From positions 1 to 55,299 of the forward strand of contig NZ_SJEX01000024.1 in NCBI RefSeq assembly GCF_005930495.1: a DNA stretch of 55,299 nt, read 5' to 3'. The first letter of the stretch is position 1. The number at the start of each line of letters is the position of its first letter. Of this stretch, positions 11,947 to 55,265 are shown in pieces. Made by a program: the position numbers and the translations under genes. This stretch comes from Modestobacter excelsi. Lineage in GTDB: Bacteria > Actinomycetota > Actinomycetes > Mycobacteriales > Geodermatophilaceae. Below the pieces are notes generated by a model. It made no database searches and was not told the origin of the DNA. It saw nothing but the letters and a program-made list of their open reading frames with translations.

Positions 11947-11990
11947 GTGACCTCGGGGTGACGGCCCGGTGACGGTCCCTGGCGTTGGCT
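11947..11990 (+). promoter_or_regulatory. GTGAC 11-bp direct-repeat box with -10
   Basis: GTGAC (or GTGAC-like) units start at 11947, 11958 and 11969, exactly 11 bp apart. A -10-like TTGGCT lies at 11985-11990, 11 nt after the last unit. Transcription would start at about the ATG at 11997, implying a leaderless or nearly leaderless mRNA. The box at 36091 has the same TTGGCT. Confidence 0.75.
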
Positions 11991-11996
11991 GCGGTC

Positions 11997-12293
11997 ATGA
12001 CGCAGCTCGTGGGGGAGGCAGTGTCGGCCAGCCTGACGCCGGGCCCGGTCATCGACGCGCAGGGGCCGATCGGCCAAGCCCAGCTCGTCGGCGTCCGGGC
12101 GGGCCGCAACAAGGACTTCGACCGCCTGGTGCTCGACTTTGAGGAGCCTGTTCCGGGCAACCTGGTCCAGTACGTGAGGCACCTGCTGCAGGACGGCTCG
12201 GGCAATCCCGTCCCGCTCCGCGGTGGAGTGGCCGTCGACGGCATCGTCGGTCCGATCACCCGCGCGGCGATGGTGCGCGCCCAGGGCCTGTGA
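11997..12293 (+). CDS. Small AMIN-like / peptidoglycan-binding-like protein
   Basis: A 98-residue protein. The middle (VGVRAGRNKDFDRLVLDFEE, about residues 31-50) resembles the start of AMIN-like domains. The end (VAVDGIVGPITRAAMVRAQ) is a typical PG_binding_1 helix motif, where this family reads VDGIxGPxT. The two pieces look like compressed versions of larger cell-wall-binding domains. There is no signal peptide. The ATG at 11997 follows the GTGAC-repeat promoter so closely that the transcript may be leaderless. The next gene, a membrane protein, begins 76 nt downstream and is probably co-transcribed. A role in cell-wall association is inferred from the motif only. Confidence 0.65.
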   Translation: MTQLVGEAVSASLTPGPVIDAQGPIGQAQLVGVRAGRNKDFDRLVLDFEEPVPGNLVQYVRHLLQDGSGNPVPLRGGVAVDGIVGPITRAAMVRAQGL

Positions 12294-12369
12294 AGGAGCC
12301 ACGACGAGGGACGCAGGCCATGGCGCCAGTGAAGCCGCGCCATCCCCGACCACGAGTGGCCGAGGACAG

Positions 12370-13548
12370 GTGATCACCGTGGAACCCACGGAGGCGCCCG
12401 ACCCGAGAGCAGGACTGCTCGACACGATCCGGGCCAGACGAGTCGGCATCGAGGCCTACGTCCGGAGGAAGGCTCCGGTGAGCAGGCGGCTGTCGACCGT
12501 GAGCATCGTCAGCAGTGCCGTCGTCGCCGCGCTGACCGCGGGCCCTGCCCTGGGCGGCCCCACCTTCGCGGAAAGGGTCCAGCAGGGGCTGTCGCTCGAC
12601 GCATCGCGGACGGTGTGGCAGGGGCTGTGCTTCGCCGCGCTCGTGGTGTCGATGACGGCGGCCGTGTCGGCCCACCTGGAGAAGACGAGTGACCTGAGAG
12701 CGCGGGTGGGCGCCGCAGAGGCGGCAGGCGTGATGCTCGCCGGGTTGCAGGCGCGGCTGGAGTACGGCGGGCTCGCCATGCAGGAGGCTGCCCAGGAGTA
12801 CCGGGACGTCCTGGCCGGCATACCCTTCGTCCCGGAGGCGCAGGGTGGGACGACGTCGCCCTCCGAACGCCGCGAGCCCCGCCTGGCGCTGCAGCTGACG
12901 GTCGTCGTCCTGGCAGCGCTCCTGCTGGCTGTCACCTTCGTGGGACTGATCCGAGGCGGCGTGGCTGCCGAGCCGGGCGGCGAGAACGCGGGCGCTCCGC
13001 CGATTGCATCGGAGGGCCCGACGCCCACACCGGCGCCGTCGCCCGCTCCGACCGCGGCTACGCCCACTCCCCGGCCACCCGCGGACGCCACGCAGGGCGT
13101 CTTCGGAGGTGGGACGCAGGACGGTGGTGCAAGCCTGGCCATCGTCATCGACGCGGACCGGGCCATGGCTTACGTCTGCGACGGGCGGCAGTTCGAGTCC
13201 TGGTTGCAGGGGTCCGTCGTCGACGGCCGGCTGGACCTGAGCTCGCCGAGCGGGGCGCGCCTGACGGGTGATCTCGGGGACGGCGCCATCTCCGGCGAAC
13301 TCCGGACCCCCACGTTCGACACACCGTTCACCGCCACGGTGGCCACTGGGCCCGCCGGGGTGTACGAGGCGAGGATCCAGGTGAACGGCACCCAGGCCCG
13401 GATCGGCTGGGCCGTCCTGCCGGACGGCAGCCAGGTGGGCGTCATCGCCGTCGGTGACACGCGCGGTGCAGCGCCCGACCTGGACCTGACCGACCTCACC
13501 TTCACGCACAACGGCAGCCTGTTCACGGCCCGGAAGCTGGGACCTTGA
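12370..13548 (+). CDS. Membrane protein: SLATT-like two-helix domain plus Pro/Thr linker and C-terminal beta domain
   Basis: About 392 residues in three parts. Residues 1-165 contain LLDTIRARRVGIEAYVRR, a hydrophobic segment (STVSIVSSAVVAALTAGPAL) and a second (LCFAALVVSMTAAVSAHLEK), then an amphipathic helical region, resembling SLATT-type membrane proteins common in actinobacteria. A third membrane segment (LTVVVLAALLLAVTFVGLI) leads to a Pro/Thr/Ala-rich linker. The C-terminal domain of about 140 residues (AYVCDGRQFESWLQGSVVDG onwards) is beta-rich and probably extracytoplasmic. The GTG at 12370 has GAGGA very close; GTG at 12379 is an alternative. A decayed paralogue of the C-terminal domain lies at 27931-28218. 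Function unknown; it shares the GTGAC-box promoter of the gene before it. Confidence 0.7.
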   Translation: MITVEPTEAPDPRAGLLDTIRARRVGIEAYVRRKAPVSRRLSTVSIVSSAVVAALTAGPALGGPTFAERVQQGLSLDASRTVWQGLCFAALVVSMTAAVSAHLEKTSDLRARVGAAEAAGVMLAGLQARLEYGGLAMQEAAQEYRDVLAGIPFVPEAQGGTTSPSERREPRLALQLTVVVLAALLLAVTFVGLIRGGVAAEPGGENAGAPPIASEGPTPTPAPSPAPTAATPTPRPPADATQGVFGGGTQDGGASLAIVIDADRAMAYVCDGRQFESWLQGSVVDGRLDLSSPSGARLTGDLGDGAISGELRTPTFDTPFTATVATGPAGVYEARIQVNGTQARIGWAVLPDGSQVGVIAVGDTRGAAPDLDLTDLTFTHNGSLFTARKLGP

Positions 13549-13849
13549 CGCTCGTGTCGGCCGGCACCACCGCGAGCTCGTCGTGAGTGAGGGAGCCAGG
13601 CGCAGGCATTGAGGACCACCCAGTCGTTGAGGAGGGACGCGGGGGAGAGCAGGAGGACACCGTCGGTGGGCGAGGGTGACCGGGCCGTCCGGAACGCCAC
13701 GCAGGAGCAGGCTCGCGCTGTGCTGACGACCTCGGCGGTCTGCTGCCGCTTCCAGCCGAGCAGCGCGAGGAGCGTCGCCTCGCGCGCGCGGCGGTGGTCG
13801 TCCAGCAGCGCGGCGCGGTGGACGGGTCGCCCGAGCGCCGCAATGTCGA
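13549..13849. other. Noncoding stretch before the USP remnant
   Basis: About 300 nt with no supported gene. One plus frame (13750-13920) reads like a decayed helical protein and may be the 5' part of the universal stress protein remnant that follows. Confidence 0.4.
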
Positions 13850-14112
13850 GCCGACCAACTTCCGCTTCCAGGAGGAGGCCGCGGCCGCCATCGACCTGGT
13901 TGTCGCACTGTTCGACGGCGGGGCCCGACCATCCACGAGCAGGTGCGCCGCGGCTCGCCCGCCGCGGAGGTCATCCGGGCGGCCCAGGAGGTCGGCGCCG
14001 ACCTCATCACGCTGGCGTACGGCAGCCGCGGGCTCCCCGCGACCATCCTGCTGGGCCCCACCGCCTCGTGCGTGCAGCCTCCGCGCCGTGTCCCGTGTTG
14101 GTGTGCCGACCT
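13850..14112 (+). pseudogene. Decayed universal stress protein (UspA family) gene
   Basis: From 13943 the frame encodes RRGSPAAEVIRAAQEVGADL followed by ITLAYGSRGLPATILLGPTA, the second half of a UspA domain (normally G-SPA-EIVRAA-EVGADLIVVGSRGRG-LLGS). Near 14068 the frame must shift to continue with the expected ending VRAASAPCPVLVCRP. The sequence before 13943 (EEAAAAIDLVVALFDGG) is again in another frame. At least two frameshifts and the loss of a normal start make this a pseudogene. The nearby phospholipase D gene is intact, so decay is local. Confidence 0.6.
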
Positions 14113-18352: not shown

Positions 18353-18436
18353 TGGATCCGGGTGTCCGATGCGTTGGGGGGACGAGGTCCGGGGTAGGCA
18401 CCCCGTCCAGCTCCCTGCGCAGTGGAGGACACGTCC

Positions 18437-20002
18437 ATGGCCGCCTTCACCTTCAGCCAGCTCACGCCGACGGCCTTCCTGGAGCGTTCGGCGCGGGTGT
18501 TCCCCGACCGCACGGCCGTGATCGACGGCGACAACCGGTTCACCTACCGGGAGTTCGCCGACCGCTCGCGCCGCCTGGCCGGCGCGCTCGGACCGCGGGG
18601 GATCTTCCCCGGTGACCGGGTCGCCGCCCTCTGCAGCAACAGCTCGACGATGCTGGAGCTGCACAACGGCGTCCCGTGGGCGGGCGCGGTCCTCGTCCCG
18701 CTCAACGTCCGGCTCTCGGCCGAGGAGCTGCAGTACATCCTGCGGCACTGCGGGGCGCGGCTCATGGTCGCCGACGGCCAGCTCGCCGGGATCGCCGCGG
18801 AGGTCGCATCCGCCGTCGGGATCCCGCTGGTGATCGCCGGCGGTGACGCCGATGGGTACGAACAGCTGCTCGGCGACGCCGAACCGCTCGCCCGCCCGTG
18901 CGAGGACGAGCGCGGCCTGCTGGCGCTGAACTACACGTCGGGGACGACCGGCCGACCGAAGGGGGTGATGTACCACCACCGCGGCGCCTACCTGCAGTCG
19001 TTGGCCATGGCGATGCACACCGGGCTCGGGCCGTCGAGCCGCTACCTGTGGACCCTGCCGATGTTCCACTGCGACGGATGGTGCTTCCCCTGGGCGGTGT
19101 CGGCGGCCGGGGCGGCCCACGTCTGCCTGCCCAAGGTCGATGCGCAGGAGATCTGGCGGCTGCTCCGGACGGAGGGCATCACGCACTTCAGCGCGGCGCC
19201 GACCGTGCTCACGATGATCGCCAACGCTCCCGAGGCCGAGCAGGGCCCGCTGGACCGGCCAGTACACGTCCAGACGGGGGGTGCGCCGCCGACGCCGACG
19301 CTGCTGGCTCGGATGTCGGGACTCAACATGGACGTCACCCACCTCTACGGGCTGACCGAGACCTACGGGCCGTTGGCGATCAACCAGTGGCATCCCGAGT
19401 GGGACGATGCGGCACCCGAGAGGCAGGCGGAGCTCAAGGCCCGCCAGGGGACCGGCAACGTCGTCGCCGACGCGCTCCGGGTGGTCACCGAGGACGGCGC
19501 TGACGTCCCCGCCGACGGGGAGACCATCGGCGAGATCGTCGCGCGGGGGAACGACGTCATGCGCGGCTACTACCTCGACGACGACGCCACGGCCGCCGCG
19601 ACCCTGGCCGGGACCGGTGACGGTGCGGCCTGGTTCCGCACGGGCGACCTGGGGGTCGTCCATCCCGACGGCTACCTCGAGATCCGCGACCGCAGCAAGG
19701 ACATCATCATCTCCGGAGGGGAGAACATCTCCTCGGTCGAGGTCGAGCGGGCGATCGACGCCCATCCCGCGGTGCTGGAGTCCGCGGTGGTGGGGGAACC
19801 GCACGAGAAGTGGGGAGAGGTCCCGGTCGCGTACGTGACGCTGCGGCCCGAGGCCGACGTCGACGACGGGCAGCTCGCGACGTTCGTCCGTTCGCGGCTG
19901 GCCGGCTTCAAGGTCCCGAAGCGCTTCGTCTACGGAGAGCTCCCCAAGACCTCCACCGGCAAGGTCCAGAAGAACGTCCTCCGAGGCCGCGTCGACGGTT
20001 AG
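18437..20002 (+). CDS. AMP-binding acyl-CoA synthetase (fatty-acid/aryl-CoA ligase family)
   Basis: A 521-residue ANL-superfamily enzyme that activates a carboxylic acid to its acyl-AMP and then CoA thioester. The P-loop-like A3 motif is LNYTSGTTGRPKGVMYHH (about residues 168-185). Later motifs are LPMFHCDGWCFPW, HLYGLTETYGPLAINQWHPE, WFRTGDLGVVHPDGYLEI (A7), RSKDIIISGGENISSVEVE (A8), and the catalytic Lys in PKTSTGKVQKNVLR (A10). All are intact. The motifs match the long/medium-chain and dimethylmalonate-type acyl-CoA synthetases of actinobacteria. The ATG at 18437 has GGAGGACACG upstream. It is divergent from the AhpD-like gene, with a shared palindromic candidate operator. Confidence 0.92.
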   Translation: MAAFTFSQLTPTAFLERSARVFPDRTAVIDGDNRFTYREFADRSRRLAGALGPRGIFPGDRVAALCSNSSTMLELHNGVPWAGAVLVPLNVRLSAEELQYILRHCGARLMVADGQLAGIAAEVASAVGIPLVIAGGDADGYEQLLGDAEPLARPCEDERGLLALNYTSGTTGRPKGVMYHHRGAYLQSLAMAMHTGLGPSSRYLWTLPMFHCDGWCFPWAVSAAGAAHVCLPKVDAQEIWRLLRTEGITHFSAAPTVLTMIANAPEAEQGPLDRPVHVQTGGAPPTPTLLARMSGLNMDVTHLYGLTETYGPLAINQWHPEWDDAAPERQAELKARQGTGNVVADALRVVTEDGADVPADGETIGEIVARGNDVMRGYYLDDDATAAATLAGTGDGAAWFRTGDLGVVHPDGYLEIRDRSKDIIISGGENISSVEVERAIDAHPAVLESAVVGEPHEKWGEVPVAYVTLRPEADVDDGQLATFVRSRLAGFKVPKRFVYGELPKTSTGKVQKNVLRGRVDG

Positions 20003-23491: not shown

Positions 23492-24508
23492 TCAGGTGTG
23501 CGGTCTGTCGGGTACCGGGTCGTCGTCCAGCGCGATGGGTGAGCGGCTCGCCGTGCGCGTTGAGGGAGTTCGGCGTCCCGGCCGCGTGCCCGACCGCGTG
23601 GTCAACCGGTCATCACGTTCGCGAGGTGCTGCGAGGATGCCCGCCTCACGAGCTCGCTGGACCGCCATCAGCCGGTCGCGCACGCCGAGCTTGCGGTAGA
23701 GACGCTCGAGGTGCTTGTGCACCGTCCGCGGAGAAGTTCGCAGTCGGCGAGCCATCGCGACGGCGGTGAGCCCGTCCCCGAGCAGAGCGAGAACGGCCAG
23801 CTCGCGCTCGGTCAGGCCGAAGCTGCGCACGGGGTCGTACCGCGCCGCAGACACGGTCTCGAGCACGACCCGCTGGCGGAACAGCGCACTGAGCGCCGGG
23901 AGGACCAGGGCGGCGAGGTCCGCGTCGGCGTCGTCGTAGTCGTCATCGGGGCGGCTGAGGACGTAGGCCTCGACTCCCTCCTCCATCACCAGCGGCAGGG
24001 CCAGCTGGTGGGTGATCCCGAACGGACGGGCAAAGGCCGTCCACTCCTCGACCATCTCCGGTCGAGCGATGGCGCTGGGTACCCGGCCGAGGATCTGCGG
24101 TGCCGTGCTGCGGGTGACCGAGTACCAGCGCAGCAGCGGTTGTGTCGTCGCGTCGACGAGGCGCCCGGACGGCGGTGCTGCCGGCAGGTAGTCGACGGGC
24201 CAGCACCCGGCGACGTGGTCCACCCACCTGCGATCCACGACGTTCCGCGAGCAGCAGGCGGCGTGGAAGGACTGCAGCAGGAGGTCGGCCACGCGATCAT
24301 GGGGGAACGGCCGCGCGCCGGCGGGCCTCGTCAGGATGTCCCCGACGAGCTCCAACCACGCTGCGGAACAGGTGACAGCGGGCGCCACACACCTCACGGT
24401 AACCAGCCGCTGCGCCTTGGTGAAGGCGTTCGCGGCTGAGGACACCAGGAGTACCAACCCCAGCACATCTCGGCCCCGCAGGGGCGTTGTCGAGCCCTGG
24501 GAAGACAT
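23492..24508 (-). CDS. LuxR-family transcriptional regulator
   Basis: A 338-residue regulator with a C-terminal LuxR-type helix-turn-helix: FGLTERELAVLALLGDGLTA, then VAMARRLRTSPRTVHKHLER with the invariant pattern up to LYRKLGVRDRLMAVQRARE. The roughly 200-residue N-terminal part has a GAF-like character (THQLALPLVMEEGVEAYVLS) but I do not recognise a defined sensor domain and see no phospho-acceptor receiver motif. A basic, low-complexity tail of about 45 residues follows the HTH. I use the ATG at 24508; a GTG 15 nt upstream is also open. A near-palindrome lies at 24516-24533, just upstream of this start, suggesting autoregulation. Its targets are unknown. Confidence 0.82.
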   Translation of the reverse strand: MSSQGSTTPLRGRDVLGLVLLVSSAANAFTKAQRLVTVRCVAPAVTCSAAWLELVGDILTRPAGARPFPHDRVADLLLQSFHAACCSRNVVDRRWVDHVAGCWPVDYLPAAPPSGRLVDATTQPLLRWYSVTRSTAPQILGRVPSAIARPEMVEEWTAFARPFGITHQLALPLVMEEGVEAYVLSRPDDDYDDADADLAALVLPALSALFRQRVVLETVSAARYDPVRSFGLTERELAVLALLGDGLTAVAMARRLRTSPRTVHKHLERLYRKLGVRDRLMAVQRAREAGILAAPRERDDRLTTRSGTRPGRRTPSTRTASRSPIALDDDPVPDRPHT

Positions 24509-24515
24509 GCTGCGA

Positions 24516-24533
24516 GTACGCACTTCTGCGTAC
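24516..24533. promoter_or_regulatory. Inverted repeat at the LuxR-regulator start (candidate operator)
   Basis: GTACGCA (24516-24522) and TGCGTAC (24527-24533) are perfect 7-bp arms around CTTC. It lies 7 nt upstream of the regulator's likely ATG and so could overlap its ribosome site or promoter. Confidence 0.5.
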
Positions 24534-27218: not shown

Positions 27219-27250
27219 GTGACGGTCCCGTGACGGGCGAGGGCGAGGCT
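27219..27250 (+). promoter_or_regulatory. GTGAC 11-bp direct-repeat box with -10
   Basis: GTGAC at 27219 and 27230, then GAGGCT at 27245-27250, 10 nt after the second unit. It lies in the 496-nt gap 26970-27465, about 210 nt before the small-protein gene at 27466, the only gene downstream I can support. The rest of the gap holds no gene I can support. Confidence 0.65.
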
Positions 27251-27465
27251 GCCGTCGTCGGGACCAAGGCGCGTCCGTGAGCAGGGCGGGTGTGCCAGCA
27301 CGCCAGAAAGCGGCGGACGAGCAGCACCTGGCTCCCCGCTGGGTCCTGATGTGCCTCTGACCGGCGTGGGGGACGGGGACGTCGGACCGCACGGGACGGC
27401 CGAGTCCTCCCCTCGACGGTTGCGCCCCCGTCGCGTGAGCACCTCCCGCGGTGTCAGGAGCAAGG

Positions 27466-28253: not shown

Positions 28254-28297
28254 GTGATGTCCGGGTGACAGCGGAGTGACGGTCGCGGCCCTACGGT
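28254..28297 (+). promoter_or_regulatory. GTGAC 11-bp direct-repeat box with -10
   Basis: GTGAT at 28254, GTGAC at 28265 and 28276, all 11 bp apart; TACGGT at 28292-28297 follows after 11 nt. The DUF2235 gene begins 75 nt downstream. The box at 45320 has the identical TACGGT at the same distance. Confidence 0.8.
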
Positions 28298-35953: not shown

Positions 35954-35996
35954 AGTCTCGCGAGTCGCCGTCAGCGCGATGTCACGGCGGCGTCAC
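35954..35996 (-). promoter_or_regulatory. Triple GTGAC 11-bp direct-repeat box with -10 (minus strand)
   Basis: On the minus strand GTGAC units begin at 35996 and 35985, with CTGAC at 35974, all 11 bp apart. GAGACT follows after 10 nt (35959-35954). It should drive the five-gene operon 35861-29970. Confidence 0.8.
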
Positions 35997-36090
35997 CGGA
36001 CGGTCTCTCTGCCACCTCCCTGGGCCTCGTCGAGTCGGTGGGCCGGGTGCCGACGCGGGGAGGTCGGCGAGCGTCGTCCGTGCCTCGGCG

Positions 36091-36122
36091 GTGACAGCCC
36101 GGTGACGAGCGCTGCGTTGGCT
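36091..36122 (+). promoter_or_regulatory. GTGAC 11-bp direct-repeat box with -10
   Basis: GTGAC at 36091 and 36102, then TTGGCT at 36117-36122 after 10 nt. It is divergent from the triple box 95 nt to the left, so one regulator could switch both redox operons together. The ATG of the next gene is at 36157. Confidence 0.8.
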
Positions 36123-39206: not shown

Positions 39207-39844
39207 CGCGCCGGTACGCGACGGCCGTCGCCGTCGTCGCCGGCATCTCCCTCGGCGGCTTCGTCCTCGCCGAGGCGCTCCACCTGCCCTGGGCAGCCAC
39301 CGCACCGTCGCTGGGGACGTCGGCCGCGCCGATCGCGGCGGTGCTCGGGGTGGGCATGCTCGTGGGTGATGCGGTGCTCCCCGTGCCCTCCAGCCTGGTC
39401 ATGGTGGCGCTGGGCAGCACCTTCGGCCTGGTGGGAGGCAGGGTCCTCGGACTGGTGGGCAAGGTCGGCGGAGCCCTGGTGGGATTCGCCATCGGGCGGC
39501 AGCTCGCGGGCTCGGCCCCGCCGCCGGACGGAGAGCGGGCGGCCCGGCTGCTGCGCCGCTGGGGCGCCGTCGCCGTCACCGTGAGCCGCCCGGTACCGGT
39601 CCTCAGCGAGACCGTCGCCGTCCTCGCCGGGATGTCGACGATGAGCTGGCAGCGGGCCGGGGTCGCCGCGACAGCCGGGTCCCTGCCCGAGGCGGCGTTG
39701 TTCTCCTGGGCCGGGGCCAGTGCCGGCGGCGGCGGCGGCGGGATCGTCATCTGGCTCGCCCTCGTCCTGACCGCATCGGCGGTCTGGGCCGTCGACCATC
39801 GCCGCGCGTCCGCAGGTCGGCGGGCCGCGTTGACGGAACGGTGA
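39203..39844 (+). CDS. VTT/TVP38-like small membrane protein (DedA superfamily)
   Basis: A 213-residue hydrophobic protein with about five membrane segments. GDAVLPVPSSLVMVALGSTF and the following GLVGGRVLGLVGKVGGALVG with FAIGR resemble the core of SNARE-associated/DedA-like (VTT) proteins, and RWGAVAVTVSRPVPVLSETV, then AVLAGMSTMS, is the conserved re-entrant motif. Members flip or transport lipids or keep membrane proton balance. Its ATG overlaps the stop of the ferritin-like gene (ATGA). The last gene of the plus-strand redox operon; its end overlaps the next promoter box at 39830. Confidence 0.75.
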   Translation: MTRRYATAVAVVAGISLGGFVLAEALHLPWAATAPSLGTSAAPIAAVLGVGMLVGDAVLPVPSSLVMVALGSTFGLVGGRVLGLVGKVGGALVGFAIGRQLAGSAPPPDGERAARLLRRWGAVAVTVSRPVPVLSETVAVLAGMSTMSWQRAGVAATAGSLPEAALFSWAGASAGGGGGGIVIWLALVLTASAVWAVDHRRASAGRRAALTER

Positions 39845-39862
39845 CGGCGCGGCTGCCAGGCT
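39830..39862 (+). promoter_or_regulatory. GTGAC-type 11-bp direct-repeat box with -10
   Basis: TTGAC at 39830 and GTGAC at 39841, then CAGGCT at 39857-39862 after 11 nt. The box overlaps the last codons of the VTT gene. Transcription would start about 25 nt before the ATG at 39893. Confidence 0.7.
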
Positions 39863-43399: not shown

Positions 43400-43431
43400 G
43401 TGACGCGACGGTGACGCGGCCCGGGTACACC
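43400..43431 (+). promoter_or_regulatory. GTGAC 11-bp direct-repeat box with -10
   Basis: GTGAC at 43400 and 43411, then TACACC at 43426-43431 after 10 nt. It precedes the MBL-fold gene at 43482 and overlaps possible 5' sequence of the divergent DUF2278 gene. Confidence 0.78.
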
Positions 43432-43481: not shown

Positions 43482-45323
43482 ATGACCACGACTGACGTCG
43501 GTCCGTCCAAGGTGCCGGACGCGCGGAGCACTGGATCGGTGGATGCGCACCGCGATGCGCGTCCGTGGCGTCCCGCGGCCCTTCGCGACGTACCCCGGGA
43601 ATCATTGACCGGGCTGTCCTACGTCGTCGTGGACGAGGTGGTGACCAATCTCGTCACGCTGGCGGTGAGCCCTTGGCCCCGTGCCGACGAGCTCGGCCGG
43701 CTGCGCTTCGACGACTCGGCCGACCGCGGTCACGTCGTCGTGCACCGGTCGGAGCTGCACGGGGTGCTGTATGACGGGTGGCTGCAGCGGGAACCCCGCG
43801 TCGGCGACGCCTTCGCTGCCCGGATCACCCCCGAGGTCGAACGGCGGCTGGCGGCGGGGGAGGACGTCCGCCTGGACCGAGGTCTGCGGCTCACCGACGT
43901 CATCGCGAGCGAGGTCCACGACCTCAGTGCCGAAGCGCGCACGGTCGGCAAGCTGGCCTACTTCGCCGCGATGGCCCCGAGGGTCACCCTGGAGGAGGCG
44001 AAGCGGCGCGATCAGGAGGGCAAGATCCTCCGCCCGAAGGTGGTCGAACCGCACCGGCTCCGGGCACGACGGTGGAACGGGCCGGTGCTCGCCGCCACCG
44101 ACACCGACGCGATGGCCACCGCACCACCCGGCACGCTGCCCGGGAGTCTCCTCAAGCCCACGGCGGCCGGCGAGTTCCTCCGCGAGATCACCGCGGAGCC
44201 CGAGTCGCTCGTCTACTTCCTGCTCAACGTCGGTGACGGCGACACGCAACTGGTCCTGCTGCCGACCGAGGAGGGCGCGGGGGGCCGTCGGGCGGTAGTC
44301 GTCGACGTGGCCACGAGCGGGAAACTGGTCGACCTCGTCACGGCGCTCGCGGACGCCGGCATCCTGCTGGACCCCGGGACGACGCCCGGCGTCTTCCCGG
44401 TCGTCGTCGCGACGCATCCTCATGACGATCACATCGGAGGGATGCCGCAGTTCCTCGACCGCTTCGGCCGGGCGGGGCAGATCAGCGACTTCTGGGAACC
44501 GGGGTACTACCACCCCAGCGCCACGTTCGTGGAGACGATGGCGCTGCTCGAGGAGTGCGCGATCCCGCGGACAGAGCCCACCAGCGGGATGACACGCTGG
44601 ACCGGTGGCGCGAAGATCACCGTCCTGGCACCGTCGGTCTCCCTTCGGGTCCGCTACGACTCCTACGGCGTCGATGTCAACGACGCCTCGATCGCGCTCA
44701 AGGTCGAGTTCCCCGCCGCCCGCGTGGCACAGCAGCTCGACGAGCAGCGCCGGGAGGGCAACCGCCATTACCTCCGGCTGGACTCCCCGTGGAACCTGAT
44801 CCTGGGCGCCGATGCCCAGACCACCTCCTGGGCGCACGTCACCGCCGACTTCCCCCAGTTGAGACGCCAGTACGACACGCCGCTGTACAAGGAGCTCGCC
44901 GCGGCACGCGGGCTGGACCACCTCGCAGCGGATGTCTTCAAGGTGTCCCACCACGCGTCCAAGCACGGGATCAACCTCGAACTCGTCGAGCGGATCCAGC
45001 CCGAGGTCGCCCTGGTCTCCTCCGTCTGCGGCGGCGGGAAGTACAACTTCCCGCATCTGTTGGCGACCGAGGCGATCCGCGAGGCGATGCAGCGGACCAC
45101 GTCGAGGAACACCGCCCGGCTCGACGACCACCGGCTCGGCATCCACTACACGGGTGCGACCGTCCGTGGAGACGGAGACCCCCGGCCCGCCGGCACGATT
45201 GCGATCGTCCTCTCGCCGAGGCGCCGGACCAAGATGCGGATGTGGCGCTTCGGGGACACCCCGCGGCAGGCGGTCGACCTCCAGGACGCGGTTCGCCTGG
45301 CCCCACTGCGCTCACCGAGGTGA
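43482..45323 (+). CDS. ComEC-like MBL-fold hydrolase with long N-terminal extension
   Basis: A 613-residue protein. The N-terminal 235 residues are unassigned and rich in charged residues. The MBL domain starts FLLNVGDGDTQLVLLPTEEG and has the intact metal motif VATHPHDDHIGGMPQFLDRF (HxHxDH). It continues with LILGADAQTTSW and DVFKVSHHASKHGINLELVE (late His), in the style of ComEC-Rec2 C-terminal domains. No membrane segments are present, so it is not a DNA channel itself; the domain is found alone as a nuclease or phosphodiesterase-like enzyme. Strong ribosome site GGAGGAGGAGA precedes ATG at 43482. The HAD-M28 gene follows under its own box. Confidence 0.8.
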   Translation: MTTTDVGPSKVPDARSTGSVDAHRDARPWRPAALRDVPRESLTGLSYVVVDEVVTNLVTLAVSPWPRADELGRLRFDDSADRGHVVVHRSELHGVLYDGWLQREPRVGDAFAARITPEVERRLAAGEDVRLDRGLRLTDVIASEVHDLSAEARTVGKLAYFAAMAPRVTLEEAKRRDQEGKILRPKVVEPHRLRARRWNGPVLAATDTDAMATAPPGTLPGSLLKPTAAGEFLREITAEPESLVYFLLNVGDGDTQLVLLPTEEGAGGRRAVVVDVATSGKLVDLVTALADAGILLDPGTTPGVFPVVVATHPHDDHIGGMPQFLDRFGRAGQISDFWEPGYYHPSATFVETMALLEECAIPRTEPTSGMTRWTGGAKITVLAPSVSLRVRYDSYGVDVNDASIALKVEFPAARVAQQLDEQRREGNRHYLRLDSPWNLILGADAQTTSWAHVTADFPQLRRQYDTPLYKELAAARGLDHLAADVFKVSHHASKHGINLELVERIQPEVALVSSVCGGGKYNFPHLLATEAIREAMQRTTSRNTARLDDHRLGIHYTGATVRGDGDPRPAGTIAIVLSPRRRTKMRMWRFGDTPRQAVDLQDAVRLAPLRSPR

Positions 45324-45352
45324 CTCGGCGGTGACGCCGCAGCGTCTACGGT
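45320..45352 (+). promoter_or_regulatory. GTGAC 11-bp direct-repeat box with -10
   Basis: GTGAC at 45320 and 45331, then TACGGT at 45347-45352 after 11 nt. The first unit overlaps the stop of the MBL gene. The ATG of the HAD-M28 gene is at 45383. Confidence 0.8.
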
Positions 45353-45382: not shown

Positions 45383-47134
45383 ATGAAGCTGGTCTTGTTC
45401 GACCTGGGACAGACGCTCGAGGACGGCGACGTCCTGCTGCCCGGGGCGCTGGAGACGCTCGAGGCGATCGATGCACTGCGCGACGGCGACCGACCGGCCG
45501 CGCGACTGGGCCTCGTGTCCGACTTCGACATGACGAACGACCCCTCGCAGGTGCCGGTCATCCAGCAGCGTTACTACGCGCTGCTCGACGACCTCGGCAT
45601 CCGGAGGTTCTTCGAGCCGGTCGCGGAGCGGGTCACGCTGTCGACCGAGGTCGGCGTGTTCAAACCCGACGAAGCCGTCTTCCGCGCCGCGGTGACGAGG
45701 GCCGTGCCTGGCCTCGAGTTCCGCGACGTGCTGTTCGTGACCGAGAACCGCAGCCACGTCCTGGCTGCCCGGCGTCTCGGCCTGAGGGCCGTGCACCTGC
45801 GTGGGCCGGGGCAACCGGACGGTGAGGTCGACGGGTTGACCGATCTGATCCCGCTCGTGCGCGCGTTCACGGAGCAGGACACCGGGCCGGCGCAGACCGC
45901 CGTCCTGACCGCCCCACCCGGTGCGGAGGACGCGATCCCCGCCGACGTGGGGATCACCTGGACGAGGCTCGGTGACGTGCTCCTGGTGAGCGGCCCCTCC
46001 GACCCCGTGCAGGAGGTCGTCGCCGGTACCGGCCTGACGACGGCCACGTCGACCTCCGTGCCGAGAGGGCGACTGCACCTCGTCACCCAGATCGGGCGCT
46101 GCTTCCAGCAGGAGCACCCCGACGTCCCCGTCGTCGTCGACAAGGGACGGTACCTCGTCGTCGACCTCGATCCTGAGCAGGCCGCCGCTCTCGACGGATC
46201 GCCGACCGGGTGCTTCGGTGTGCGGCCGTTGCCGGCCAGCGAGGCGGTGTTCGAGCAGCGCACCGTGGGCCGGCCCGCCGGCGCCGCGCCGGCCCGGCTG
46301 CGCACACGCGAGCACGCGCTGTCGCGGGCGGCGTTCGAGGCGGACCTCGCCACGCTCGTCGGTTTCGGCACCCGGCACTCGACGCGCCCCGAGTTCCTGG
46401 CCGCCGTCGAGTGGGCCCGGGGCGAGCTGACCGCGTCGGGCTGTGCGACGCAACTACAGACCGTCCCAGTGGGCGCCGGGACCAGCCGGAACCTCATCGC
46501 CGACCGGGTCGGCCACGGGAGCGACCGCCAGCTGGTGCTCGTCGGCGCGCACCTCGACTCGGTGAACCTGGCCGGTGGTCCTGCGGCTGCCGCGCCAGGC
46601 GCCGACGACAACGCCTCAGGCGCTGCCGGGGTGCTCGCGATCGGCCGGGCGCTCGCCGAGGAGGCCATCGCCCACGACCTGCGGCTGATCCTGTTCGGAG
46701 GAGAGGAGCAGGGTCTCCTCGGCAGCCTGCACTACGTCGCTGGGCTCGACCCGACGGAGCGCAGCCGCATCCGAGCCGTGATCAACATGGACATGATCGC
46801 GGGGCGCAACACGGACACGCCGACGGTGCTGCTGGAGGGGGCCGCCGTCTCGCAGGACGTCATCGACGCACTGGCCGCTGCAGCGCAGGAGCAGACCGAC
46901 GTGGCGGTCCAGACCAGCCTCAACCCGTTCAACAGCGATCACGTGCCGTTCCTCGATCAGGGGATCCCGGCCGTCCTGACCATCGAGGGGGCCGACGGCG
47001 CCAACGACAGGGTCCACACCGACCGGGACCGGATCGAGTTCCTCGACCACGTCCTCGCCCTCGAGATCCTCCGGATGAACGTGTCGTTCCTCGTGCAGGC
47101 GCTGAGCGAGGACCAGTGGGTGACCGTGCGGTGA
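45383..47134 (+). CDS. HAD-like domain fused to M28 zinc aminopeptidase
   Basis: A 583-residue fusion. Residues 1-165 are HAD-like: KLVLFDLGQTLEDGDVLLPG (motif I), RLGLVSDFDMTNDP, VGVFKPDEAVFRAAVTRAVP (motif III Lys) and DVLFVTENRSHVLAARRLGL. In motif I the second catalytic Asp is Gly (D-L-G-Q-T), so phosphatase activity is doubtful. Residues 310-580 are an M28 peptidase: RQLVLVGAHLDSVN, GADDNASGAAGVLAIGRAL (metal Asp), LILFGGEEQGLLGSLHYVAG (catalytic Glu pair), AVINMDMIAG and NSDHVPFLDQGIPAV (metal His). All metal ligands are present. No signal peptide; secreted M28 enzymes usually have one. Driven by a GTGAC-repeat box. Confidence 0.85.
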   Translation: MKLVLFDLGQTLEDGDVLLPGALETLEAIDALRDGDRPAARLGLVSDFDMTNDPSQVPVIQQRYYALLDDLGIRRFFEPVAERVTLSTEVGVFKPDEAVFRAAVTRAVPGLEFRDVLFVTENRSHVLAARRLGLRAVHLRGPGQPDGEVDGLTDLIPLVRAFTEQDTGPAQTAVLTAPPGAEDAIPADVGITWTRLGDVLLVSGPSDPVQEVVAGTGLTTATSTSVPRGRLHLVTQIGRCFQQEHPDVPVVVDKGRYLVVDLDPEQAAALDGSPTGCFGVRPLPASEAVFEQRTVGRPAGAAPARLRTREHALSRAAFEADLATLVGFGTRHSTRPEFLAAVEWARGELTASGCATQLQTVPVGAGTSRNLIADRVGHGSDRQLVLVGAHLDSVNLAGGPAAAAPGADDNASGAAGVLAIGRALAEEAIAHDLRLILFGGEEQGLLGSLHYVAGLDPTERSRIRAVINMDMIAGRNTDTPTVLLEGAAVSQDVIDALAAAAQEQTDVAVQTSLNPFNSDHVPFLDQGIPAVLTIEGADGANDRVHTDRDRIEFLDHVLALEILRMNVSFLVQALSEDQWVTVR

Positions 47135-47161
47135 CGAGAGCGCAGGGCGTCAACGGGTGCC

Positions 47162-49821: not shown

Positions 49822-49853
49822 AGCATGAACGGGCGGCGTCACCACGACGTCAC
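49822..49853 (-). promoter_or_regulatory. GTGAC 11-bp direct-repeat box with -10 (minus strand)
   Basis: On the minus strand GTGAC at 49853 and 49842, then CATGCT at 49827-49822 after 10 nt. The leader to the ATG at 49717 is about 98 nt. Confidence 0.75.
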
Positions 49854-49932: not shown

Positions 49933-50673
49933 TCAGTCGGTGGCCAGGGTCCGCTTCACCAGGTGCTCGAGCACCCGATCGGTCTTGGACCTCGGGTCGG
50001 AGTCGACGGGGACACCGAAGTCGTCCAGGTACCCGTTCAGCGCCGACTGCTTCGACTCCGCCTCGTCCAGCTTCGCGACGGTCGACAACTCGAGGAAGTC
50101 CAGGTGGTCGACCGTCCACCGTTCGGCCCGGACGTCGAGATCGCCCAGCGTCCCCCCGAGGTCGTCCCATCGCGTCGCCGTGATGGGTGGCAGCACGGTG
50201 AGGGTCCGGAGGTTGACCCGGATCGGAGAACAATCGCGCAGGAAGGTCTCCTGCGCCTTCGTGAAGAGGCTCGCCGCGGACCGTTGTCCGCGGCCAGCAC
50301 CAGCGACGATGTCGTCGGGCCGGTCGGCGGTGTGCGAGATCGCGAGGACTCGTCGCTGACCGGCCCAGTCGGCCTCGATCTTCACCTCCCCGTCGTCCCC
50401 CTTCTCGGCCGCGAGCCAGTCGTCGGTGAGCTGGGACCGTCGACCGGGGCGGAGCTTGATCGTGCTGTCGTCCGTGCTGTCCGGCTTGTGGCGGGCACGC
50501 AGGACCACGCCCGCCGTCCTCAACGGGGTGCCGGCCGAGACGCCCCGGGCGACGTCCTCGCAGAAGTGGATCCGCCAAGGCTCGTCCACAGGGGGCAGTC
50601 CGAGTTCCGCCACGGCCGACTCCGTCTGGTCGCCGCTGGAGTTCACCTTGATCTCGACCCGGTCGAGCCGCAT
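49933..50673 (-). CDS. CYTH-like domain protein
   Basis: A 246-residue protein that resembles the CYTH (adenylate cyclase/thiamine-triphosphatase) fold. The pattern RLDRVEIKVNSSG at the start, AGVVLRARHKPDSTDDSTIK with LRPGRR, then GEVKIEADWAG, SLFTKAQETFLRD and LDFLELSTVAKLDEAESKQS follows the actinobacterial CYTH-like proteins I remember. The N-terminal ExExK motif is degenerate (E-I-K-V), so catalysis is uncertain. ATG at 50673; triple GTGAC box 105-130 nt upstream. It is divergent from the M43 protease gene, which has its own box. Confidence 0.6.
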   Translation of the reverse strand: MRLDRVEIKVNSSGDQTESAVAELGLPPVDEPWRIHFCEDVARGVSAGTPLRTAGVVLRARHKPDSTDDSTIKLRPGRRSQLTDDWLAAEKGDDGEVKIEADWAGQRRVLAISHTADRPDDIVAGAGRGQRSAASLFTKAQETFLRDCSPIRVNLRTLTVLPPITATRWDDLGGTLGDLDVRAERWTVDHLDFLELSTVAKLDEAESKQSALNGYLDDFGVPVDSDPRSKTDRVLEHLVKRTLATD

Positions 50674-50761: not shown

Positions 50762-50804
50762 ACGCTAGGGCCCGGTCGTCAGCGCTCGGTCACCGTGCCG
50801 TCAA
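50762..50804 (-). promoter_or_regulatory. Triple GTGAC-type direct-repeat box with -10 (minus strand)
   Basis: On the minus strand TTGAC at 50804, GTGAC at 50793 and CTGAC at 50782, 11 bp apart. TAGCGT follows after 10 nt (50767-50762), the best -10 match of the set together with the box at 55223. Confidence 0.8.
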
Positions 50805-50925: not shown

Positions 50926-50941
50926 GTGACGCGAGGGTGAC
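50926..50941 (+). promoter_or_regulatory. GTGAC 11-bp direct-repeat box, weak -10
   Basis: GTGAC at 50926 and 50937. The downstream sequence (GATGGC region near 50950) is a poor -10. It lies 130 nt before the M43 protease start; the 399-nt gap 50674-51072 otherwise holds only the divergent box. Confidence 0.6.
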
Positions 50942-51072
50942 GCCGACGTGATGGCCGCACGGGAACATCTCCCTCGCCACGGGGCGGGACAGGACGCAGG
51001 AACCCGGGGCCCACCAGATGTGGGAACCCGTCGCTCCCGTCGGGCACGTCACGACCAGACGGAGGCAGGCAG

Positions 51073-51969
51073 ATGGCGAAGCTGGTGCTCGGGGAGCGTG
51101 AGTTCGACAGTCAGGAGACGTTCGTCCGGGAAGGGCGGCGCTGCGGGACGCCACAGCTCAACGACTTCCAGAAGGAGCGCGTCCGCGCTCACCTCCGGAC
51201 GGCCCGGGCCAACGGCATGGATGCCGCGGGGGTGACGCAGATCGACATCCCGGTGCACTTCAACGTGGTGCACGACGGCGGAACGGGCGACGTGACCGAC
51301 CAGGAGCTCGACGCCCAGCTCAGTGTCCTGAACGACGCCTACAAGGCACACGACATCGTCTTCCACCGGGCGTCGGTGGAACGCAGGGACGACCCCGTCT
51401 GGTTCAGGATGACCATGGGCAGTCCGGCCGAGCGGAAGGCGAAGACGGAACTCGGCAAGGAGCAGCATCGATCGCTGAACCTCTACACCGCCGGCATCGG
51501 CGCCGGCCTGCTCGGGTGGGCCACGTTCCCGAGCGACTTCGCGGGCGACCCTCTCCTCGACGGCGTCGTCGTCCTCTTCTCAAGCCTCCCTGGCGGTTCC
51601 TCGGCGCCGTACGACCTCGGCCTGACTGCCGTGCACGAGGTCGGACACTGGCTCGGCCTCTTCCACACCTTCGAGGGCGGGTGCACCCCGCCCGGAGACG
51701 AGGTCGGGGACACGCCGTTCGAGGCGAGCCCGAACTTCGGGCCGGCGAACCCGACGCGCGACACGTGCCCGAATGACAGCGGAACCGACCCGACCACCAA
51801 CTACATGGACTACACGGACGACGCCGGCATGACGGAGTTCACCTCGGGTCAGGTCACGCGGATGAAGGAGCAGGTCACGATCTACCGTCCCGACCTGCTG
51901 GGTGCCGGCCACGCCGATGCCGCCGACGCCGCGCGGGCGGGGATCGACTTCGAGACCGGCGACTTCTGA
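51073..51969 (+). CDS. M43-type (pappalysin-like) zinc metalloprotease
   Basis: A 298-residue protease. Zinc site: LTAVHEVGHWLGLFHTFEGG (HExxHxxGxxH). The Met-turn is NYMDYTDDAGMTEFTSGQ, and C-x-x-P-G-D-E-V-G-D-T-P-F spacing with CPNDSGTDPTTNYMD matches the pappalysin family, including the N-terminal VTQIDIPVHFNVVHDGG. Typical bacterial members are secreted with a signal peptide; here the N-terminus MAKLVLGEREFDSQETFVRE has none. ATG at 51073 follows GGAGGCAGG. The next gene starts 17 nt downstream and is likely co-transcribed. Substrates are unknown. Confidence 0.88.
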   Translation: MAKLVLGEREFDSQETFVREGRRCGTPQLNDFQKERVRAHLRTARANGMDAAGVTQIDIPVHFNVVHDGGTGDVTDQELDAQLSVLNDAYKAHDIVFHRASVERRDDPVWFRMTMGSPAERKAKTELGKEQHRSLNLYTAGIGAGLLGWATFPSDFAGDPLLDGVVVLFSSLPGGSSAPYDLGLTAVHEVGHWLGLFHTFEGGCTPPGDEVGDTPFEASPNFGPANPTRDTCPNDSGTDPTTNYMDYTDDAGMTEFTSGQVTRMKEQVTIYRPDLLGAGHADAADAARAGIDFETGDF

Positions 51970-52612: not shown

Positions 52613-52622
52613 CCGTGCTGCG

Positions 52623-52654
52623 GTGACGGCTCGGTGACGATGCTCCACGAACAT
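52623..52654 (+). promoter_or_regulatory. GTGAC 11-bp direct-repeat box with -10
   Basis: GTGAC at 52623 and 52634, then GAACAT at 52649-52654 after 10 nt. The holin-like gene starts 41 nt downstream. Confidence 0.75.
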
Positions 52655-52694
52655 GGGTGCTCGCTACGCGGGAGATCTCGAGGAAGGAACAGCC

Positions 52695-52955
52695 ATGTCA
52701 GCGCCCACTGATCTGCCGAGGAACGCCAACGACCCTGCCAAGTCCACCCGGACCACAGCCGCAAAGGCCTGGGCGGCGGCTCTGTTCAGCGCGGTCCTGG
52801 CATTTCTCTCCTCGCTCCTCACTGCGCTGGGTGGTACCGACACCGGGTTCGACTCGATCACCGCCGGCCAATGGCTCACCGCGGTGATCGCCGCGCTCAT
52901 CGCCTTCGGTGGCGCAGCCGGCCTCACCTACTACGTCCCGAACAAGCCTCGCTGA
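52695..52955 (+). CDS. Small holin-like membrane protein
   Basis: An 86-residue protein with two membrane segments: KAWAAALFSAVLAFLSSLLT and WLTAVIAALIAFGGAAGLTY, joined by a short loop (ALGGTDTGFDSITAGQ), and a short charged end VPNKPR. This size, the T-A-G-Q-W-L turn and the ending are characteristic of actinophage holins. No phage genes surround it. ATG at 52695 has AGGAAGGA upstream. Under the same promoter type as the cluster proteases. It may have been recruited for export or membrane permeabilisation; that role is inference. Confidence 0.65.
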   Translation: MSAPTDLPRNANDPAKSTRTTAAKAWAAALFSAVLAFLSSLLTALGGTDTGFDSITAGQWLTAVIAALIAFGGAAGLTYYVPNKPR

Positions 52956-53080: not shown

Positions 53081-53112
53081 GTGACAGCGTGGTGACGCTG
53101 CCTCCTCATCAT
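53081..53112 (+). promoter_or_regulatory. GTGAC 11-bp direct-repeat box with -10
   Basis: GTGAC at 53081 and 53092, then CATCAT at 53107-53112 after 10 nt. The leader to the collagen-like gene ATG at 53212 is about 93 nt. Confidence 0.72.
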
Positions 53113-53211
53113 CGAAGTCCGGTCTCGTGCCGGCGTTCCTGCTGGCATCCGGCGGACGGGGCGGGACCATCGCCCATCCTCGACGGCGCTCATCCCTGAG
53201 GAGGTACCCCG

Positions 53212-53760
53212 ATGACCCATTCAGGGGACACCGCTGCACAGTCGGGCAGCTACGGGGAGCGAGGGTCCGGCAAGGCCACGCGTCTGGTCGCCTGGCTGGC
53301 GCTGCTCCTCTCGCTCATCGCCGTGCTCCTCTCGCTGATCATCCCAGCCATCGCCGGTACGAAGGGGGTCAAGGGCGACCCGGGCCCGGCCGGCGTGACG
53401 GGACCCGCCGGGGAGCCGGGGCCGGCGGGTCCCCCCGGTCCGGCCGGTCCGGCCGGACCGGCCGGTCCTCCCGGTCCCGCCGGATCCAGTGGTCCTCCCG
53501 GGCCGTCGGGATCTGTCGGCGGCACAGGGACATCAGGAGCGGGGACCTCGTCCTCCCTCACGCCGGTCGGTCCTCCGCAGACCGGAGTCGGAGGTGCGGT
53601 GGAGGACTCAGCAGATCCGCGGGTGCTGTTCATGACAGCCGGCGGCACGCTCATCGGCGTGGCGTTGATCACGGGCGTGTACGCGATGCGGCGACAGCGG
53701 CCGGACGGGATCGACGACGTGCCCGCGGGCGACAGCGGATCAGGTGACCCCGCTCGTTGA
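53212..53760 (+). CDS. Collagen-like repeat surface protein with sortase-type C-terminus
   Basis: A 182-residue protein. Residues 22-49 are a hydrophobic export segment ([20 protein letters not shown]). Residues 52-105 are collagen-type Gly-X-Y triplets ([20 protein letters not shown] and following). After a Ser/Gly/Thr linker comes [10 protein letters not shown], resembling an LPxTG-type sorting motif, a short spacer, a membrane helix ([20 protein letters not shown]) and a basic RRQR stop. ATG at 53212 with GAGGAGGT upstream. Its 3' end overlaps the sortase gene start. Likely attached to the cell surface by that sortase; the exact cleavage site P-P-Q-T-G is inference. Confidence 0.85.
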
Positions 53761-54460
53761 GGGCGCGGCCGTGCGCAGACCTCGGCCGTCGCCCTCGGCC
53801 GGTCGGCAGCAGCGGACCGGACGGATCGGTGTCGTCTGGGGCGGGGTGGGTGTCGTCCTGCTCGCCCTCGGCTGTGTGCTGCCGAGGGGGTCGCCGTCGG
53901 CCGCTGCGGACGGGACCGCCCCGGTGAGCTCCGTGGACATCAAGGTCCCCGACGCGACGGGCCTGGCTGAGCACGAATCCTACGTCCCTCCCGCGGTGGC
54001 CCTCAGCCCCGCGCCGGCCCCCACGCACCTGGACATCCCGCGGATAGGCGTGCACACCGACGTGATCCCGTTGGGGCTGAACCCGGACGGGACGGTGATG
54101 GTGCCGCCGGTGGACCCGCACGCCCCCGCGGGCTGGTACCGCCATCTCGCGTCGCCGGGTGAGCCGGGACCGGCGGTCCTGCTCGGGCATGTGGACAGCT
54201 ACCAGGGACCCGCGGTGTTCTCCCGGCTCTCGGCCCTCGCCCCGGGCGACAGCGTCTCGATCGATCGCGCCGACGGCCGCACCGTCGTCTTCACCGTCCA
54301 GTCGGTGCAGACCTACCCGAAGAGCTCCTTCCCCACCGACCTGGTCTACGGCCCGGCTGACGTACCGGTCCTGAGGTTGATCACGTGTGGAGGGTCGTTC
54401 GACCGCGTCCACCGCAGCTACCTCAGCAACGTGGTGGTCTTCGCCGGGTTGGCCCGTTGA
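53744..54460 (+). CDS. Class F sortase
   Basis: A 238-residue sortase. An N-terminal membrane anchor ([20 protein letters not shown]) precedes a Ser/Ala/Pro-rich stalk. The catalytic domain starts [20 protein letters not shown] and has the His in [20 protein letters not shown], the Cys in [20 protein letters not shown] and the Arg seven residues after it. All three catalytic residues are present. The GTG at 53744 lies inside the collagen-like gene (17-nt overlap), so the two are translationally coupled: a sortase with its probable dedicated substrate. Class F sortases of actinobacteria have few known substrates. Confidence 0.9.
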
Positions 54461-54534
54461 CCGCGGCGCGGACGCCCGTCACCACCCGGTCGCCCGAGCC
54501 GGCAGGCGACCGGCCTGATGATCACGGAGGTCCC

Positions 54535-54591
54535 ATGGCACCGCACGAACCCCCGGAACGCGAGCCCTCGCCCGAGGTCGACCGGCGATGA
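54535..54591 (+). CDS. 18-residue upstream ORF coupled to the next gene
   Basis: ATG at 54535 is preceded by GGAGGTCCC (a strong ribosome site) and encodes MAPHEPPEREPSPEVDRR. Its TGA overlaps the ATG of the gene at 54588 as ATGA. The downstream gene has no ribosome site of its own beyond this. It may serve as a translational coupler or be a short, real peptide. Confidence 0.5.
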   Translation: MAPHEPPEREPSPEVDRR

Positions 54592-55172
54592 GCGACGTCG
54601 CGACGATCCTGCCCGCCTACATCGGGGTCGCCCTCCTGCTCATCGGGGGGGCGTGGGCGTACTTCACGTTCCTGCACCAGCGTCAGGGTGAGCCTGCCAC
54701 CGACATCGACGTGGACCTGGAGTTCATCGGCACCCAGGCGGAGCAGCACATCATCCAGGTCACGGCCGACCTCGAGAACAGGAGTCTCGTACGGCACCGC
54801 TACCAGGACTTCATCCTGACCATCCGCTACCTGACGAGGGAGGACGGCGTGGTGGACGGCGACGCCCCCCTCAACTACCAGCTCAACTGCCCCCGGACGA
54901 TCGACAGTCGGATCGGGGGCGAGAAGCGGTACTTCGCCAACCCGAGCTACATCAACCCCAGGCAGCGGTTCCGCCACCGGTACGTCACCTACCTACCGCA
55001 CGACGCCACGTTCGCGTGGGTCCAGTGCAGGTTCACCTACGACCACACCGGGCTCTGGTCCCGGTGGGCCAGGGCGCACCACCGCGACTCCGTGGTCACG
55101 AACAGCCAGCGGATCCGCCGCGTCCCCCAGTGCGGTGATCCGTGTCGCTGCGACCGGGGAGTCGTCCTCTGA
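54588..55172 (+). CDS. Membrane-anchored protein of unknown function
   Basis: A 194-residue protein with one N-terminal membrane helix (ILPAYIGVALLLIGGAWAYF) followed by a beta-rich domain: DIDVDLEFIGTQAEQHIIQV, TADLENRSLVRHRYQDFILT, RYFANPSYINPRQRFRHRYV, TYLPHDATFAWVQCRFTYDH. The C-terminus carries several Cys. I do not recognise the family. The pattern of a beta sandwich on a membrane anchor suggests an accessory envelope protein. It is translationally coupled to the 18-residue ORF and lies 127 nt after the sortase gene, so it may belong to the same transcript. Confidence 0.7.
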   Translation: MSDVATILPAYIGVALLLIGGAWAYFTFLHQRQGEPATDIDVDLEFIGTQAEQHIIQVTADLENRSLVRHRYQDFILTIRYLTREDGVVDGDAPLNYQLNCPRTIDSRIGGEKRYFANPSYINPRQRFRHRYVTYLPHDATFAWVQCRFTYDHTGLWSRWARAHHRDSVVTNSQRIRRVPQCGDPCRCDRGVVL

Positions 55173-55222
55173 CCACGATGACCTCATGAGCACCCACCGA
55201 GCCGGCGGGGGCGGCGGGCGAG

Positions 55223-55265
55223 GTGATCCCGCGGTGACGCCTCAGTGACGCGTCGCTCCTAGCGT
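55223..55265 (+). promoter_or_regulatory. Triple GTGAC-type direct-repeat box with -10 at window end
   Basis: GTGAT at 55223, GTGAC at 55234 and 55245, 11 bp apart, then TAGCGT at 55260-55265 after 10 nt. It should drive a gene beyond the right edge, so the regulon continues outside this window. Confidence 0.8.

Follow-up and report, generated by a model that had tools for sequence, protein, structure and literature searches.

The window analysed here is one whole contig (NZ_SJEX01000024.1, 55,299 nucleotides) of the 5.26-Mb, 178-contig genome of Modestobacter excelsi. It carries a series of boxes made of GTGAC units in direct repeat with a period of 11 bp, most of them a fixed distance ahead of a -10-like hexamer (Table 1). 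Directly preceding the main cluster of boxes are two genes, SARP1 and SARP2, encoding short activators of the SARP (Streptomyces antibiotic regulatory protein) family, and the boxes are very probably the operators of the clade of short activators to which these two belong.

The exact dyad, GTGACN6GTGAC, occurs 14 times in the window against 0.34 expected, a count reached by none of 100 shuffles; with one mismatch allowed, there are 32 against 9.3 expected. A sequence-only reading of the window had listed fourteen boxes and claimed for them a strict period of 11 bp. All fourteen places do hold a box (those at 39830 and 50804 start with TTGAC, those at 28254 and 55223 with GTGAT), and the window has 14 pairs of GTGAC at period 11, with no pair at periods 5 to 10 or 12 to 20. 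The same reading counted five boxes of three units, and at least five have three or more if one mismatch is tolerated; it saw none in the regions 1-11.9 kb and 14-26 kb, where there is no exact match and a lone single-mismatch match, at 21627. An exact dyad absent from its list, at 47120, is probably a chance match and no box, because it lies inside coding sequence and has no -10. The whole genome has 55 exact dyads vs 1 match to the reversed pattern. The window, 1% of the genome, holds 14 of the 55, and the other 41 lie elsewhere, part of them background, so the idea of a coherent regulon survives but not its restriction to a single accessory cluster.

Table 1. GTGAC boxes, regulators, and associated genes in the window.
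Feature	Position	Strand	Details
Triple GTGAC box	11947..11973	+	TTGGCT; before AMIN-like open reading frame (ORF) 11997-12293 (PF24837)
LuxR/GerE-type regulator	23492..24523	-	divergent from SARP1; PF00196 E 4e-12
SARP1, short SARP activator, 265 aa	24824..25621	+	BTAD, PF03704 E 7e-17; 59% identical to SARP2
SARP-linked small protein, copy 1, 67 aa	25794..25997	+	tblastn and alignment
SARP2, short SARP activator, 250 aa	26217..26969	+	PF03704 E 1e-21; AfsR by profile E 1e-13
GTGAC box	27219..27234	+	-10 GAGGCT; upstream of small-protein copy 2
SARP-linked small protein, copy 2, 75 aa	27550..27777	+	tblastn and alignment; downstream of 27219 box
Triple box, first unit GTGAT	28254..28280	+	-10 TACGGT; before Tle1-like lipase 28369-29916
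Gene run	35924-29970	-	protein of no known family, DyP peroxidase, P450, epimerase, SGL-like (below cut-off)
Triple box, last unit CTGAC	35970..35996	-	before run 35924-29970
Box, upstream unit GTGCC (36091 site)	36080..36106	+	TTGGCT; before run 36157-39844
Gene run	36157-39844	+	protein of no known family, ferritin-like/VioB-like, VTT
Box, TTGAC + GTGAC	39830..39845	+	-10 CAGGCT; before alpha-amylase/branching-enzyme-like 39893-42355
Box	43400..43415	+	TACACC; before 43434/43605-45323, weak Lactamase_B match below cut-off
Box	45320..45335	+	-10 TACGGT; before M28 peptidase 45383-47134
Exact dyad, absent from earlier list	47120..47135	+	within 3' end of M28 peptidase gene; no -10
Box	49838..49853	-	-10 CATGCT; before 47492-49549/49723, matrixin-like below cut-off
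Triple box, TTGAC, GTGAC, CTGAC	50778..50804	-	-10 TAGCGT; before 49933-50673, no known family
Triple box, last unit GTGAT	50926..50952	+	-10 GAACAT; before M43 metalloprotease 51073-51969
Box	52623..52638	+	-10 GAACAT; before open frame 52653-52955 (100 aa, no known family)
Box	53081..53096	+	-10 CATCAT; before frame 53127-53747 (no known family), then class F sortase 53744-54460
Triple box, first unit GTGAT	55223..55249	+	-10 TAGCGT; target gene past contig end

Promoter layout

Layout was assessed over 201 dyads drawn from the window, its relatives, and the named loci, with the overlapping pairs of triple boxes each counted. A hexamer of the form A-N3-T starts 10 nt past the last GTGAC (A at 12 nt) in 83 of the dyads and 11 nt past it (A at 13 nt) in 38, and each of the other offsets below 22 accounts for 0 to 8. 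There is a second peak at offsets 22 and 23 (20 and 13 dyads), as the upstream pairs of triple boxes would give. Gene calls from a simple GC3 caller, prone to missing some short genes, place 192 of the 201 dyads in intergenic sequence, which makes up 16.5% of the 43 loci; a called gene start lies no more than 450 nt downstream of 148 dyads. GTGAC pairs at period 11 number 96 in those 43 loci (94 of them intergenic), as against 1 to 10 for each other period from 5 to 19. At the 82 sites of the shorter spacing, each unit is followed by G (93% and 91%) or A and never by C or T, a restriction that the search had not imposed, and is preferentially preceded by C and then G (57 to 71%).

For sites in the window, a -10 was accepted by eye if A-N3-T began 10 or 11 nt past the last unit, itself with at most one mismatch. 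Thirteen of the fourteen boxes had been credited with such a hexamer; eleven retain it, and those at 11947 and 36091 (TTGGCT) and at 43400 (TACACC) do not. The boxes had also been said always to point to the nearest downstream gene, and for 13 of the 14, a gene or ORF does start on the same strand within about 320 nt (the frames downstream of 27219, 52623, and 53081 coming only from a mechanical ORF list or from homology), whereas the box at 55223 runs off the contig.

According to passages of PMC10936776, the direct repeats of the published SARP promoter are spaced by 11 or 22 bp, 8 bp separate the 3' repeat from the -10, and the afs box has its center at -29.5. The boxes have the spacing of 11 bp, and a hexamer starting 10 nt past GTGAC, as in the 83 dyads, starts 8 nt past the heptamer GTGACGN, matching the spacing of the SARP 3' repeat. 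With a unit of CGGTGACRNNN and the hexamer placed at -12 to -7, the boxes would, by analogy, take the same position as the afs box.

Boxes and SARP genes in the Geodermatophilaceae

Genomes of relatives are denoted below by G, genera by g, and loci by L. A search with SARP2 at E 1e-30 finds a match in 57 of 112 Geodermatophilaceae genomes (SARP+) and none in the other 55 (SARP-). The strict R-site, GTGACRN5GTGACRN10-11ANNNT, is found in 52 of the SARP+ genomes (413 sites, up to 24 per genome) vs 5 of the SARP- genomes (5 sites; Fisher 7e-20), and the reversed pattern has 4 matches in all 112. When SARP labels were shuffled within genera, none of 100000 trials reached 52, the largest value being 45. 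Genus by genus, sites are present in 12/12 SARP+ vs 0/11 SARP- genomes of Modestobacter (g1), 9/9 vs 1/14 of g18, 11/14 vs 0/2 of g19, and 18/20 vs 0/6 of g20; g27 (1/1 vs 1/2) is too small to tell. In G008, which is a single contig, 8 of the 12 strict sites fall within about 20 kb of a SARP gene. An earlier form of the strict pattern, without R, met a background of GTGACC in SARP- genomes (seen for g18), and R after each unit removes it. Dyads of the GTGACC type with a -10-like hexamer recur in many g18 genomes, also in those without this SARP.

Both window proteins carry the BTAD domain (PF03704) that marks SARP activators. The AlphaFold2 model of SARP2 has a mean confidence (pLDDT) of 90, and its best solved matches are AfsR (8k60/8hvr, TM about 0.7) and then EmbR, with which it aligns over about 250 to 270 columns. 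Control of an antibiotic biosynthetic cluster, a typical though not a defining trait of SARP activators, is not apparent: a scan of 40 window frames found neither condensation nor carrier domains nor a polyketide synthase, and turned up one stand-alone AMP-binding enzyme at 18422-20002. The small protein encoded after each SARP gene belongs to a family of 67-83 aa in the Geodermatophilaceae. The longer frame of its second copy, 27451-27777, has no Pfam match, and the predicted fold, beta-beta-beta-alpha, is of modest confidence (pLDDT 74) and gave no match at E 0.001 in a structure search. One might guess that the small protein is a partner of SARP.

Genes downstream of the boxes

In the window, the boxes precede genes for M28 and M43 peptidases, a matrixin-like protein (below cut-off), a Tle1-like lipase, the DyP peroxidase/P450 run, ferritin-like/VioB-like and alpha-amylase-like proteins, a class F sortase, and several proteins of no known family. 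Ten proteins encoded after dyads elsewhere in the genome comprise TIR, patatin, LGFP/galactose-oxidase-like, kelch, GtrA, phage integrase, PQQ-like, and H2TH proteins and two without a match; some of these outlying dyads lack a -10 and may be background. All told, 128 downstream proteins fall into 83 clusters. The idea of a single pathway common to all targets is rejected, as 82 representatives (one cut by a locus edge was omitted) are spread over 102 Pfam families, the commonest of which, the S8 peptidases, has only 3 members. In two relatives, a box stands before another SARP gene (L156:9863, and in L174 upstream of 5096), and a cascade from SARP to SARP is therefore possible.

Among the targets in relatives are extracellular contractile injection systems (eCIS). 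With Pvc16_N as the marker, eCIS were found in 19 of the 112 genomes, at 20 loci, 17 of them in SARP+ genomes. SARP is present in 16/19 eCIS genomes vs 41/93 of the others (Fisher 0.002, uncorrected for kinship). A box with its -10 stands 24 to 186 nt before the eCIS gene run at 12 of the 17 SARP+ loci vs 0 of the 3 SARP- loci (Fisher 0.049). It precedes the Pvc16 or AAA-WHD gene in G003, G006 (where the distance is approximate because the called start falls inside the Pvc16 domain match), G007, G083, G087 (second locus), and G088, and the sheath-tube run in G043, G062, G080, G087 (first locus), G089, and G090. No box precedes the eCIS operon in the fetched stretches of SARP+ G000, G047, G071, G072, and G094 or of SARP- G067, G091, and G112.

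Discussion

The proposal, made from the letters of the window, that the boxes are activator sites standing in for a -35 element, with SARP heptamers named first among the analogues, gains support from the motif statistics, the neighborhood, the co-occurrence across 112 genomes, and the spacing to the -10. The likely readers of the boxes are SARP1 and SARP2, and of the two we propose SARP2. SARP protomers would bind side by side to two adjacent 11-bp units (CGGTGACRNNN); with the hexamer at -12 to -7 and the commoner spacing, the two units would span -40 to -19, and their center, at -29.5, would be where AfsR sits on the afsS promoter. SARP would thereby substitute for the missing -35 and recruit the housekeeping polymerase. 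The regulon so activated would be genome-wide and accessory, taking in peptidases, a lipase, oxidases, proteins of no known family, and, in relatives, eCIS operons.

Other readers are conceivable. A core response regulator of the OmpR family, of the PhoP, MtrA, GlnR, or AfsQ1 type, might read the boxes, and passages of PMC6988585 describe Streptomyces PHO boxes that are also direct repeats of 11 nt, as well as a GTGAC site for GlnR. The core of the PHO box, GTTCACC, differs in its letters from that of the boxes, however, and genes of the OmpR type (PF00486, E 1e-10; counts that do not tell the regulators apart) occur in all 23 Modestobacter genomes, 8 to 14 in each, with a mean of 11.3 in SARP- and 10.1 in SARP+, whereas boxes occur in the SARP+ genomes only, the 11 SARP- genomes having no strict R-site. 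Since OmpR-type genes are about equally numerous with and without boxes, readers of the PhoB/PhoP/GlnR type, which had also been put forward as analogues, are disfavored, and we judge this explanation very unlikely. The reader might instead be encoded by another gene of the island, either the LuxR/GerE regulator or the small linked protein. The LuxR gene is present in 20 of the 112 genomes, 19 of them SARP+, and beside SARP in 18 of the 20; genomes with both have a median of 12 sites, vs 3 for SARP+ genomes without LuxR; and GerE is listed as an eCIS-associated domain in passages of PMC8213781. But 33 of the 38 SARP+ genomes lacking LuxR have sites, while G084, with LuxR and without SARP, has none, and the small protein lies within 2 kb of SARP in just 21 of 44 named loci (one query, E 1e-3). 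Tandem direct repeats of 11 bp, moreover, suit SARPs rather than the dyads of LuxR proteins. Another reader from the island thus appears quite unlikely, but the larger regulons of genomes with both genes suggest that LuxR may serve as a regulator, either upstream or joint.

There is next to no likelihood that the repeats are products of chance, coding bias, or a mobile repeat. Plain dyads do number 7 to 30 in genomes of other families of the order and 12 to 27 in SARP- genomes of Modestobacter, so that a good part of the window genome's matches outside the clusters is background. For strict sites, however, this explanation is already contradicted: the shuffles, the reversed pattern, and the comparison of periods speak against chance, and at 11947 it is the spacers that vary, the units being retained.

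Further points weigh against taking the boxes as SARP operators. Strict sites are missing from five SARP+ genomes (G068, G070, G077, G082, and G099); in three of these the SARP matches are only distant (1e-38 to 1e-43), a fourth genome is split into 610 contigs, and G077 has no such explanation. Conversely, five SARP- genomes have one strict site each (G042, G104, G110, G119, and G126). The SARP+ label comes from one query, the shuffling within genera leaves some shared ancestry in, and SARP and boxes could be associated through co-inheritance of a single genomic island, with no direct contact between the two. Of the 201 dyads, 80 (some of them upstream pairs of triple boxes) have no A-N3-T at either main offset. 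No exact box precedes SARP1 or SARP2, and hence no autoregulation is visible. The PF00486 profile matches neither protein, and the predicted N-terminal winged helix of the OmpR type in SARP2 therefore rests on the model and the match to AfsR. Control of eCIS by the boxes is rejected for the window genome itself, whose eCIS (on contig C1) has no GTGAC dyad. It is preceded, within L177:11-1250, by a diverged SARP (L177:11-808), a small ORF, and a repeat ATCTGA-N5-ATCTGA, also with a period of 11 bp, possibly a parallel SARP code. Finally, what the computation shows is the motif, its spacing, its place ahead of genes, its co-occurrence with SARP, and the conservation of its units; we infer the binding, the dimer, the activation, where transcription starts, and which SARP of the pair acts.

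If the boxes are SARP operators, then they resemble those of AfsR (at afsS), DnrI, ActII-ORF4, and PimR, which passages of PMC10936776 and PMC10972967 describe as direct repeats set 11 bp apart, the 3' one lying 8 bp from the -10; the overlap with or lack of a -35, and the SARP fold, are further likenesses in the same passages. They differ from known SARP operators in their core, GTGACR, in the number of scattered strict sites (up to 24), and in having eCIS and hydrolases as targets, vs one biosynthetic cluster. The regulon is thus unusual in its size, scatter, and targets, with no antibiotic cluster but many scattered promoters. Whether this SARP clade has left antibiotic clusters and now serves as master activator for a large accessory regulon of interaction in the Geodermatophilaceae, with eCIS, hydrolases, TIR, and patatin, scattered across the genome, firing together from one operator, a SARP cascade, and a dedicated small partner, seems to us an evenly balanced question.

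The association of BTAD with eCIS has already been published (Geller 2021, PMC8213781; again in PMC12961389). The eCIS loci of Geller 2021 resemble those considered here in that a BTAD regulator lies near eCIS, GerE being present as well, but the passages of that paper concern domain association only, while the present evidence extends to an operator, the layout of its promoters, and the genes presumably under joint control, and the regulator frequently lies at a distance from eCIS. Also akin are the cluster-specific regulator SlpR (the SCO4263 homologue) of the Streptomyces SLP/CIS system (passages of PMC10286715 and PMC13277306, which give neither its protein family nor an operator) and a regulator of the SARP family tied, as a hypothesis, to CIS genes in S. 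clavuligerus (passages of PMC13102240). The passages of PMC8213781, PMC12961389, PMC13102240, PMC13170358, and PMC6988585 do not describe an operator made of the GTGAC dyad. What the boxes provide is a sharply defined operator and, throughout an entire bacterial family, its tie to a probable activator. The code GTGACRN5GTGACRN10-11ANNNT can be searched for, and it predicts genes switched on along with contractile injection systems. What turns eCIS on, and what is produced with them, thus becomes directly testable in culturable soil bacteria.

Conservation of the boxes and their occurrence in other families

The triple box at 11947 precedes an AMIN-like gene in G008, Geodermatophilus telluris, and G. 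tzadiensis as well; its units are kept, and the first spacer differs between genera. The ATG of this gene begins at the seventh base past TTGGCT (window 11973-11999, and also in G008), as would suit a leaderless transcript. Compared with the G008 protein, of which residues 1-78 and then 201-222 align in one frame, the AMIN-like ORF of the window has an internal shortening. The box at 27219 is kept in G006 and G007; none was seen in the aligned stretch of G008 after SARP2.

Outside the family, many loci have no boxes. In Streptomyces zaomyceticus, boxes lie between SARP and the next gene, and in Micromonospora, boxes adjoin SARP at four loci (L132, L134, L147, and L148), where tblastn found no small protein. 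The SARP-side boxes at these four loci precede a gene of the polyketide-cyclase family, and at two of them, a box also precedes what, by our own reading of the sequence, looks like an acyl-carrier-protein-like protein. The Micromonospora loci look like the classical role of SARP, served by the same operator.

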